Source: Cloeon dipterum
Taxonomy: Eukaryota > Arthropoda > Insecta > Ephemeroptera > Baetidae
Length of the DNA stretch: 64,000 nucleotides
Reading direction: 5' to 3'
NCBI RefSeq assembly: GCF_949628265.1
Contig: NC_088790.1
Location: forward strand, 15,318,545-15,382,544
The notes under the pieces are model-generated. The model was not told the origin of the DNA. It searched no databases and saw nothing but the letters and a program-made list of their open reading frames with translations. Below, one piece after another: positions 33,139 to 39,100 of the stretch (position 1 is its first letter; every line of letters begins with the position of its first letter). The position numbers were made by a program, and so were the translations under genes.

Positions 33139-36100
33139 TCATTCATCCCACTCATCGTCGTCTTCATCGTCGTCGTCATCTTCGTCGCTGTCCGATTGAA
33201 TCACCTTGGCCCGGTCGGCCAGCGCCCTCGCCAGAGCACCTGCTAGTGTGTCTTCTTTCTCCATGTCCGGTTTGGCCGCAGAGGACGCGCCTGGGGTCAC
33301 CTTCCGTAGCTCCTTTCCCCGTCGAATCTCGTCCAGCAGGTCACCACGCGCGTCGCCACCACCGCTCGGTGCCGGGTTTGAAACCGGCTCCACTTTCTAG
33401 AAAAAAATATTAAATAAATTAAATTTTGACAGTGAAATACCACTTTAAGTGACGTGTACTTTGTTGGGATTGGTATGGTAACCAACAATTTCTAAGACGC
33501 AAATATCTCTCAATCTTTTAAAATGTGTTAGCAGATTTATGCCTCTGGCATTTTAAGAAGAAAACAACAAGGGAAGACTGTTATTCCAAATTATTTTAAA
33601 ATTTTCATTTGAAAAAACACCAAAGCAAAAGTTTAAAAAAGGCTTGTAACAAAAACAAAAATGTGGAGGATTTTCGATTATCAGTAAAAAAAAATCAACT
33701 GATTTTTCATGAATTTAAAATTTTCGCCAACATGAAATAAATTTATGTATCTACATACCTTCAATTGCCTTCCACCCCTGATGGCATCCATGAGGGCTGA
33801 TCTTGGGTCGTCCCCGGCGCCCATGGGGGGCGGCTTTGGAGCGCTTGGGGCAGTGGGAGTAGCAACCGGGCTGTCGAAGACCGGAGGTGGCGGGGGTGGT
33901 GGTGGCGGCGCCGGGCCCCCGCTGGCTGGGGGCGGTGGGGCAGGCGGCGCCATTTTCAAGCCGATCACGTTCCGTGACGGCGGCGGTGGTGGCGCGGCCA
34001 CCTGCTGCGAGGGCGGCGGCGGGGTGGCCCTGATGCGGTCGGGGGGCGGTGGTGGAGGTGGGGCGCCCCGCTGCTTTGACTCAGCGGGCTGAGATAGCGC
34101 CGTCCGCACAGGCACCGGAGGCGGAGGACCCGGCACACTCTGATGCACCTCTTCTTTAACAGCCTGAAAATTCATTTCAATCAGCATGGCAGTAGGAAAA
34201 TAAATAATTTAAACTCTATGGGGTAGCTTTAAGAAAATGCAGAGTTTGTAATGTAAGTTGCTAGTTTAAAACTTTCCTGATATCTACTGGTTAAAAAAAT
34301 CATGGAACTTGTAAGATGTTCAAATTATATATTTGTAGGCATATTTCAATGTAACTTTATAATTAAATAGTTTATTGCATTTAATTTAATTTCCACATCT
34401 TTTATTTTTTTATTTATTTGTCATACATTAGATTAATGGTTGAATATTATTGTTAAATTAATTTTTGAAATAACTTAATAATGTGTGAAAGTTATCAAAA
34501 TTTGTATCAGCCCCCAGAATATATTTAAAATAAAAAATAGGCATATCATGAGAGAATCCAGTATGACTCTGTAGCTTACTGAAAGTAAAAAATTACACGT
34601 CAATCGATTTGTCTCATTAAATAGTATCAAAATAATTTAACTCATCACTTTAGATATAAAATTTTACATTGTCATGATTGCCATTTAAAAATTTCTAATA
34701 TTTTTAACGGCTTGTAGTTGAATTCTATATTTTTTTAAATAGTTTACATACCATCAACCTTTATATTCGATACTTATATCTTCCTCGCTGGTAAATATGA
34801 GTTTATTTAACGGCTTATACAGGAAATAGTAAACAAGGTATTTTCCAGATATGATTGCAAATTTAATCAAATCTACGAATTTACCGAGATTTTTGCTCAA
34901 GCACTTATAGCCACTGAATTTAAAAACCCTTATGAAATTCATCTGGTTTTTTTCAAATGAGAAAATTTTTGTAAATCTAGATTTTTTCAACGATTTCAAC
35001 ATTTGCAACAAAACCTAGTAGCTGTAACAAACCGCACACTCACAGAAAAATTTTTCACTATGAGTATGAAAATGCGGCTCTCAAATTGATAATGCAACTT
35101 TGAGTCTCACAGTGAGTATCAAAGGCGTCCGGACGCTTCTCGTACTCACTGTGATGACCAAACACTCGTTCTCAGTTGATAATGAAGCGAGCGAGCATTT
35201 TGGTCATCACAGTGAGTACGAGAAGCGACTGGACGCTTTTGGTTCTCACTGTGATGACCAAACGTTCATTCTCAGTTGAGACTGACGCGAGCGACGATTT
35301 TCGTCATCACAGTGAGTACGAGAAGCCGCCGACCGCTTTTGATACTCACTGTGATGACCAAACGCTCGCTCTCAGTTGATACTGAAGCGAGCGAGCATTT
35401 TGGTCATCACAGTGAGACTGAAAAGCGGCCGACCGCTTTTGATACTCACTGTGATGACCAAATCGCTTGCTCGCTTTTCAGTCTCAATCTGAGAGCGAGC
35501 GCACATCTCTTTTAAGTACTCACATACCCTGCAGATCATGGTTTCAGTCATTTTTAATCATTTTATAATTCATTTGGATAAGATCTCATAAATTTACACA
35601 CTCGGCGGCATCCATGTTTGATTTGATTGACATTCTCGAGAGTAGTGTCAAGGACGAGGAACTTAGGACAAGCATTATTTACTTAAGTCGCTAATGGACA
35701 TTTTTTCATTTTTATTATGTTTTGGCCGATTTAAGTTGCCTTAATTACGAATTATCGCAGCCAAAAGAGGCTTAAATCAGCAAAATTTAGGCAAAAAATA
35801 TTGGCAAATGAATAAAAATAAAGAAAAAACGTGAGTCTTCAAATATCTAATGCGCTATCTCCTTTCTCTACATGCATTGCTTTAACAGCTGAGTTTTAAT
35901 GGGTGGCGAAAACTGTAATTTTTACATATTTTATGCTCTAATTCTGAAGCTAACCTATGTCAATCTTGTACACATAATATTATAAATTGAACAAAATGTT
36001 GATTATAATATGATTTATTCTATTTTATCTTTATGCAAGTAAAACCAGTAGTAGTTAGTTGTTTTTTACATTTAGAGAGGCGTGTACATAAAAATTAAAA

Positions 36101-39100
36101 CTCAGCTGTTAAAGCAATGCATGTAGAGAAAGGAGATAGCGCATTAGATATTTGAACACTCACGTTTTTTCTTTATTTTTATTCATTTGCCAATATTTTT
36201 TGCCTAAATTTTGCTGATTTAAGCCTCTTTTGGCTGCGATAATTCGTAATTAAGGCAACTTAAATCGGCCAAAACATAATAAAAATGAAAAAATGTCCAT
36301 TAGCGACTTAAGTAAATAATGCTTGTCCTAAGTTCCTCGTCCTTGACACTACTCTCGAGAATGTCAATCAAATCAAACATGGATGCCGCCGAGTGTGTAA
36401 ATTTATAAGATCTTATCCAAATGAATTATAAAATGATTAAAAATGACTGAAACCATGATCTGCAGGGTATGTGAGTACTTAAAAGAGATGTGCGCTCGCT
36501 CTCAGATTGAGACTGAAAAGCGAGCAAGCGATTTGGTCATCACAGTGAGTATCAAAAGCGGTCGGCCGCTTTTCAGTCTCACTGTGATGACCAAAATGCT
36601 CGCTCGCTTCAGTATCAACTGAGAGCGAGCGTTTGGTCATCACAGTGAGTATCAAAAGCGGTCGGCGGCTTCTCGTACTCACTGTGATGACGAAAATCGT
36701 CGCTCGCGTCAGTCTCAACTGAGAATGAACGTTTGGTCATCACAGTGAGAACCAAAAGCGTCCAGTCGCTTCTCGTACTCACTGTGATGACCAAAATGCT
36801 CGCTCGCTTCATTATCAACTGAGAACGAGTGTTTGGTCATCACAGTGAGTACGAGAAGCGTCCGGACGCCTTTGATACTCACTGTGAGACTCAAAGTTGC
36901 ATTATCAATTTGAGAGCCGCATTTTCATACTCATAGTGAAAATTTTTTCTGTGAGTGCATAGTGTCCAAAATTCTAGTTTGAACATTTAACACTCGAAAA
37001 AATTCCTTTGACAAATTTTATCTTGTTTGAAACTCTGTAGGAAAATTGTATTAGTAAGTGTGCTCTTCTTATTAGTCAAAACCATCGAGTGGAAAAATAA
37101 TTGACAGTTAATATTTTACACCATTTTTTATCATTGAAAGACTAATTTAAAATATTTATAGTTTAGTTGGTGATAACCATTACAGTTATTTCAAAGATTT
37201 CATAAAATTTCTAAACAAAAAAAGATATAAAGAGCTCGGTTAAAGTTGAGAGTTGAGATTAAATTCTAAATCACACATCCGTTTCTTTCTGTAATCTGCA
37301 TGAAACCGGAAGTACTAATCAATAACCTCACAGGGGGAAAACGAATTTCAGTTTATCAAAGCTACTAAATACCTGGAGGCCTCCATTTTGCGAGATGAAA
37401 TCGTAAATAAACTCTCTGGTCTGGGGATCCCTGAGCTCATACTCCTTGACGCCAGCCTTATCGAAGAACTGCTTGAGCTGCGGGTCGTCAACATTGTCCA
37501 TGTCAAAGCCCTTGTTGGGGTCCCAGCCGATGTGGGTGACATGCCGGAAGTCCTGAGGACATCCGATGTCCGCCTTGGTCAGTTTTCGTTCCTTGTCCTT
37601 GCGGCTCTTGCCCATGCTCACGAACGACGTGTTCTGGCGATGCGCTGTCAGGGCCGCCTTGGACGCCATCAGAGGCGGTGGACCGTTTTGGTTCGCCTGC
37701 GTCGGCCTTTCCGGCGGTGGGCCCAGCACCGACAATCGATTTCTCCTCTCTGACAAAAAGATTTATCTATCAGCCATGCAATTAAATCAATGTCGAAAAA
37801 TATTGCTTTTAATAAATGAGCTATTCAATTTAATACTATTTACTACTATATCGACAAAAAATGAAAATATTTTCATTTATTTTCATAACATCAAACAGCT
37901 CTTTCTAGGCAAAATGAATTCTTAGATTTTGTAGATGTTCATGATCATAGGGCTGTGATTTTAAGACAGTTGGCAATTTTTTCTGAGCTAAAAATCGTCA
38001 AGGACCAATCAAATTAAGCCCAATTCAATTTAACACCATTTTAATCGAAGAGCAATTTAAGCTCCTGGAAATTTCTTCTAAATTTAAATCAAAAGTCCTT
38101 TTTTATTAGAAAATAATTTAAATCCCTTTTACTAATATTCTCATGCAATTTTAAGAATTAAAATAAATTAATTTCGTGTTTCATACCAATTTTCCTCTTC
38201 CGCTTGGCCTCCATTTTTTGTAGCAGTGCATTTCTCAGCTTGCTTGCTTCCTCATCATCCGCAAAATTGAAAGCGGTGATGCCATCCTGAGAATACACAT
38301 GGTGAAAAAATCCACAAATAACACAGGACTGAGCAAACCTCAGCTTCAAATGTGTGAAGAAAGGGTCTTGGCGACTTGTAATCGATGTGGTTGTAGACCT
38401 CGTGCTCCCATATCATCGAGTTTCTCGTCGGACAATAGAGTCGGAAAAAGTAGGAACGTCGAATGTTGTCCTTGACTAGGCACAGCACTCCACACTCTCT
38501 CTGCACCCAGCTCGTGTGGTGCGGAGGCTCGCTGCTGAACAGCTGCACCACCGCCGTCGCCAATGTCTGCTCAACATTCAACACACAAATTTCAAATGAG
38601 GGTTTTCCCTAGAGTTTTTTTTTGTATATTTTTTTTAAATGCTATTATAGTTTTTTTTAATGTTCTAAGGAATATTGAATGTGGTATAATATATATAGAG
38701 GTGTTTTAATAGCCAAGTTGTATGGAAATGTACCTATTATGAAAAATTGGGGAAAATTTGGATTAACATGTTTGTCTCTTTTGTTCACAAATATGAGTTT
38801 TAATGATGCTAGTAGTACTAGCCAAGAAACACTCATAGAGAGCCCACAACTTGTTCAAATTATCTCAAGAACGGATTTTTATTTTTCTTCTAAGGGGTTA
38901 AAAAATTTATAAGTGTCTAAAACATGCCTAGCAAGTTTCAATATGGTGCACCTCTCAGTTTGAGAGATACAGAGGGCCAAAAAGGGTAAAAAACGTGATT
39001 TGTTTTAGTGTTCACTTTAATCAAAATTCTCTATGGGTTAATTTTGACCATCAGAACAGGCGAGAAATCAAACCCCACTTAACTGAAGTTTAATAGACTC

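Follow-up and report, generated by a model that had tools for sequence, protein, structure and literature searches.

Does a nearly perfect inverted repeat in an intron mark a locus that evolved to make silencing RNAs, or does it have a more ordinary source? The question is raised by a 1921-bp palindrome in a WASp gene of the mayfly Cloeon dipterum, which we analysed within a window of 64,000 bp (NCBI RefSeq assembly GCF_949628265.1, contig NC_088790.1, positions 15,318,545 to 15,382,544 of the forward strand; unlabelled coordinates below are positions in this window). A first-pass annotation of the window had proposed the palindrome as a candidate source of hairpin RNA. We conclude, with a probability of about 0.93, that it belongs to the non-autonomous foldback DNA transposons, has been mobile recently and duplicates a 2-bp pyrimidine-purine (YR) target, because copies with fixed ends and 2-bp duplications are dispersed through the genome, some siblings have exact empty sites and others are nearly identical to one another. 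The palindrome is one copy of a dispersed transposon, an ordinary kind of element, and a structure of this kind does not by itself point to a locus that evolved for RNA silencing.

The inverted repeat comprises a left arm at 35037..35900 (plus strand) and a right arm at 36094..36957 (minus strand), each of 864 bp, around a 193-bp loop (35901..36093) that is the same at 193/193 positions in the nearest sibling, L009. The right arm is the reverse complement of the left with three mismatches in 864 positions (at 35051, 35587 and 35837), an identity of 99.65% that is far above chance; the geometry given in the annotation (864-bp arms, more than 99% identity by eye, 193-bp loop) is thus confirmed. 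The element has the ends CACTCACAG...CTGTGAGTG and lies between two copies of a CA target duplication (35035..35036 and 36958..36959). A terminal motif, CACTCACAGAAAAATTTTTCACTATGAG, occupies 35037..35064 (plus strand) and recurs in slightly altered versions in copies at other loci. Further in, a subterminal array at 35107..35492 (plus strand) consists of about four palindromic 100-bp units with TCACAGTGAG / CTCACTGTGA, making eight sites in the left arm, and has its right-arm counterpart at 36502..36887 (minus strand); the element has 16 occurrences of TCACAGTGAG or its complement, and the remaining window has 0. With tandem repeats inside its long inverted repeats and a short middle between them, the element has the structure of a foldback, and its longest stop-to-stop frame is 85 aa.

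The palindrome is not private to WASp. The left arm matched at least 97 stretches of the 190-Mb genome, several per copy owing to the subrepeats (best 40 of 73 candidates scored), and a terminus search (best 40 of 65 candidates scored) recovered at least 40 family termini, which we grouped into at least 28 loci. Among the matches listed, two long arms around a loop are present at eight loci (the WASp copy, L009, L010, L011, L012, L014, L015 and an old copy, L017), the full palindromes being 1721-2071 bp long. Shorter two-ended forms also occur (L022-L024, 288-293 bp; L026, 617 bp; L013, 1248 bp), as do copies matching over about 200 bp and solo arms, so that both the other copies and the solo arms for which the annotation had recommended a search were found. 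The assembly artefact that it had considered is unlikely, the same structure being present with different flanks at seven other loci. The subterminal 14-mer GTCATCACAGTGAG has 126 genome occurrences, against 0 for its reversed control. Coding capacity is small throughout, with longest stop-to-stop frames of 85-99 aa in the nine copies examined. A short open frame of 31 aa (35599-35691, with a mirror site in the right arm) recurs in many inner-arm copies and may be what is left of the end of a lost or captured gene; followed up as a possible coding remnant, it gave 20 matches in a genome search, at places that also match the element, and led no further.

The ends of the family are fixed, CACTCACAG being exact at both ends in 11 of the 13 two-ended copies, with one change each at the left end of L026 and the right end of L017. 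Matching 2-bp target duplications border 11/13 two-ended copies: TA in seven (L009, L010, L011, L014, L023, L024 and L026), CA in three (the WASp copy, L012 and L015) and TG in one (L013). Empty sites were sought by joining the flanks of each copy with a single 2-bp copy of the target and searching the genome (for L009-L014, best 40 of 572 candidates scored). The joined flanks of L011 matched at least four other loci without interruption (198/198 bases, single TA), and those of L010 matched one locus at 198/198, again with a single TA, and others at 86-99% among the matches listed. The L009 junction was spanned once in the matches listed, at 87%, and in a repeat beside L011 the flanks of L022 run on without a break. 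Siblings thus have empty sites with one copy of the target, exact ones for L010 and L011. Apart from their own flanks, L015, L023, L024 and L026 had three weak matches in such a search (69-79%); the L015 junction is spanned by one of them, at 69%. As a separate observation, L010 and L011 reside inside other repeats, which are probably young as well since many near-identical empty copies of them exist elsewhere.

Three siblings speak to the age of the family. L010 (C2), L011 (C1) and L012 (C1) are separated over 1927 bp by 0-1 substitutions and 0-1 gap events, and their 600-bp flanks do not match one another; near-identity at unrelated sites indicates that the family has recently been mobile, and the movement of these three is, to judge from their sequences, very recent. 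The nearest sibling of the WASp copy is L009, with nine substitutions in 1815 positions (0.50%) and five gap events.

In seven copies, 2-4 substitutions and 0-2 gap events distinguish the two arms; one arm of L009 is short of one 100-bp unit, and the arms of the old L017 differ at 47/587 positions (8%). Between lineages, 9-32 columns differ alike in both arms, counts that vary with the alignment, some of the columns lying where gaps are frequent. L011 and L012, at unrelated sites, have the same three arm mismatches as L010; these are therefore inherited, so that high arm identity by itself does not date an insertion. In the WASp copy, the mismatch at arm position 15 is common to L009, and those at 551 and 801 occur in this copy alone. 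Relative to L009, five other changes are present in both arms of the WASp copy: an insertion of 3 bp at 638-640, a deletion of 1 bp at 664 and substitutions at 695, 717 and 755. Every other copy has the L009 state at 638-640, 695 and 717; position 755 is A or C in other copies, and the deletion at 664 is common to the WASp copy and L017. Because these five changes are absent from L009 and present in both arms, the arms of the WASp copy have probably been copied onto each other since its split from L009, or this copy may have exchanged sequence with an unseen one that already carried the changes in both arms. We infer the direction and cause of such copying. The annotation had offered a young insertion or ongoing arm-to-arm gene conversion, and both appear to apply, given a family that moved recently and five changes common to both arms; the diverged arms of L017 show that such copying does not preserve all palindromes indefinitely.

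To which superfamily does the transposon belong? It is probably a member of the CMC (CACTA-Mirage) group, because it combines CAC...GTG ends with a 2-bp duplication; ends of the form CAC...GTG (or CA...TG) and a duplication of 2-5 bp are the criteria given in PMC6004678 and PMC12730594. The transposase expected of the group, encoded by the element or supplied in trans, is a DDE enzyme with C(2)C and H(3-4)H motifs. At one locus, L041 (C1:21.227 Mb), positions 957-2355 of the minus strand hold two frames in succession, one of 393 aa containing CFRC and DYMHLICLG and then one of 93 aa. The 393-aa frame lies 5.4 kb inside a solo family end, on the same strand, and has a weak match to DUF1258 (21.3 bits against a cut-off of 33.1), a domain that has been equated with the Mirage group and placed beside the Transposase_21 of CACTA elements (PMC3985635). 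These frames are possibly a CMC/Mirage-like transposase relic, the remains of an autonomous partner. The relic, read with PMC3985635, raised our confidence in the CMC assignment by a modest step and lowered that in a Tc1/mariner origin, which had already seemed the less likely of the two.

A foldback member of Tc1/mariner, with its TA target, now appears unlikely. Tc1/mariner elements are strict for TA, which suits the seven TA duplications among the 11 matching ones; the other four, however, are CA or TG. The CAC...GTG ends and the Mirage-like relic near one family end also tell against Tc1/mariner.

Several results weigh against the element being a CMC-type foldback transposon. In two of the 13 two-ended copies the 2 bp on the two sides do not match (L022, TT/TA; L017, AT/CA). 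The joined flanks of L012 and L013 match only their own flanks, and those of L014 have no match, among the best 40 of 572 candidates. No paralogous empty site was found for the WASp copy, whose joined flanks match only their own two sides (2/2 candidates scored), as is expected of single-copy intron DNA. The link between the L041 relic and the family may be due to chance, the match being below the Pfam cut-off and the locus having been examined because a family end lies there, and the 1.4 kb beyond the relic contain no second family end. Lastly, searches with profiles, terminal and subterminal oligomers and a diverged terminus, together with frames run against Pfam, found no complete autonomous partner.

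Of these searches, the one with the PF02992 profile matched in no genome scanned, controls included, and hence provides no evidence of absence. The terminal 13-mer had 54 genome matches, against 16 for its reversed control, with no convergent pair seen beyond the known copies; among the matches listed for the subterminal 14-mer, the places C3:1595781 and C3:9215045 hold only family fragments. A search with a diverged terminus yielded no new two-ended element (40/40 candidates scored). Frames of at least 180 aa were listed in 20 stretches and ten were run against Pfam, those left out being overlapping or repeat-like, in L029-L034, L037, L039 and L040. Reverse transcriptase was matched in three of the ten (two in L037, one in L048), with a weak zinc finger in L036, a weak leucine-rich repeat in L046 and the weak DUF1258 in L041; four frames had no match (one each in L036, L041, L044 and L046).

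A further alternative, which we consider doubtful, is that the WASp copy is a hairpin-RNA locus, whose 864-bp duplex would be cut by Dicer-2 into small interfering RNAs (siRNAs) that silence its siblings or some other target. The long inverted repeat does lie inside a transcript, if the element-bearing intron is transcribed as the WASp gene model implies. Of the 915 pairs predicted for the element folded in the WASp sense (-1676.8 kcal/mol), 875 are in arm-to-arm register, which supports the expectation that the transcript would fold arm to arm and makes a hairpin-RNA role possible. Piwi-domain genes are present in the genome, and the typical hairpin RNA is described as complementary to a single target or a few, one such RNA being reported to make siRNAs against the BS2/Jockey transposon (PMC10317233). 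On the other hand, the transposon's own structure already explains the palindrome, and no host-gene match was noticed among the at least 97 left-arm stretches, which were unannotated, no search for a host-gene target having been made. What the element has in common with Drosophila hairpin-RNA loci is the potential of its transcript to form a long duplex; those loci, however, are recognised by their siRNAs and targets, whereas this one is known from its sequence and predicted fold (PMC10317233). Slightly less probable again is a combined model in which the element is a CMC-type foldback with repeatedly inter-copied arms and its WASp copy would yield siRNAs restraining the siblings, the family thereby carrying its own silencing trigger.

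Piwi domains (PF02171) were matched in 59 stretches genome-wide, which by eye form about 19 loci (for example C4:1.25-1.29 Mb, C5:3.02-3.03 Mb and C3:7.36-7.53 Mb). The Argonaute/Piwi set is apparently expanded, and some of the stretches may be pseudogenes because several hold stops.

It is very improbable that the element is a foldback of the Mutator type (FB, Tetris) or of the P type (Galileo). Galileo, like the P superfamily to which it belongs, duplicates 7 bp of its target, and the duplication here is 2 bp. Both Tetris and Galileo do have long inverted repeats that contain tandem repeats (PMC4079207, PMC3688188), and most foldbacks are said to belong to Mutator (PMC4079207). Tetris of Drosophila virilis resembles our element further in being apparently non-autonomous with no transposase source found, and in sharing its end portions with a MITE (miniature inverted-repeat transposable element), DAIBAM; it differs in its 8-10-bp duplications and its suggested Mutator kinship (PMC4079207), whereas exact empty sites set the length at 2 bp here. 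Galileo of Drosophila likewise has very long inverted repeats with internal repeats, but belongs to the P superfamily with a THAP transposase (PMC3688188). Least probable of all is a host-made inverted duplication or assembly artefact without transposition, for which near-identical arms would be natural and which is contradicted by copies with the same ends, subrepeats and loop dispersed at unrelated loci, by the 2-bp duplications and by the exact empty sites of siblings.

Among the closest described elements are two CACTA-type MITEs, CMC-NA_1 and CMC-NA_2, from parasitoid wasps and their polydnaviruses, which likewise have CAC...GTG ends, a 2-bp duplication, no coding capacity and no autonomous partner found (PMC6004678). 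The MITEs of that source are 116-422 bp long; compared by description only, our element differs in its 864-bp arms and palindromic subrepeats, though short forms exist. No description in the literature was recognised as this foldback family, which, coverage being partial, is weak evidence of novelty.

How would such an element have reached the intron? A transposase supplied in trans would recognise the CACTCACAG ends and probably also the palindromic 100-bp subterminal units, on the model of Galileo, whose internal repeats hold extra transposase-binding sites (PMC3688188). The element would be cut from one site and pasted into a YR dinucleotide (TA, CA or TG), with duplication of the 2 bp, and in this case would have entered a CA of the WASp intron. 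Occasional copying of the arms onto each other would then keep the palindrome nearly perfect in a young lineage. Its effect on WASp is most likely little, because the splice sites are 415 bp and 873 bp away; slow splicing of the WASp pre-mRNA could let the 864-bp duplex form.

The host gene was delimited by scanning seven minus-strand open reading frames (ORFs) against Pfam, four of which have WH1, PBD or WH2 matches: WH1 at 38258-38608, PBD at 37331-37762 and WH2 at 33684-34208 (21.6 bits, slightly below the cut-off of 23.1) and 33142-33396, all on the minus strand. The intron hosting the element runs from a donor at 37372 to an acceptor at 34164 on the minus strand (CCAG/GTATTT ... TTTTCAG/GCTGTT, phase 0) and is 3209 bp long, of which the element makes up 1921; the adjoining exons carry the PBD match and a WH2 match. 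These ORFs and splice sites uphold the placement inside a WASp intron, and its numbering as intron 4 is consistent with the visible exons.

A striking, near-perfect intronic palindrome is explained here by a young transposon family, and intronic inverted repeats should therefore be checked against the genome before they are called RNA-silencing loci. A foldback with 2-bp YR duplications would also widen the known range of foldbacks. With exact empty sites, three near-identical copies and an old copy with 8% arm divergence, the family is a useful natural case in which arm copying can be measured against age.

Some minor observations concern the family elsewhere. In the viral contigs scanned, the terminus had 0 matches. 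At C5:2.55-2.61 Mb (L029-L034), units repeated in two orientations each contain a relic about 80% alike to the inner arm and loop; as possible larger elements, these showed no family termini and no recognised transposase, the frames there not having been run against Pfam. At C3:9.17-9.22 Mb (L042, L043 and L057), family termini recur, the outer flanks of two being identical over 16 bp, and the area is probably a segmental duplication that carried the element along.

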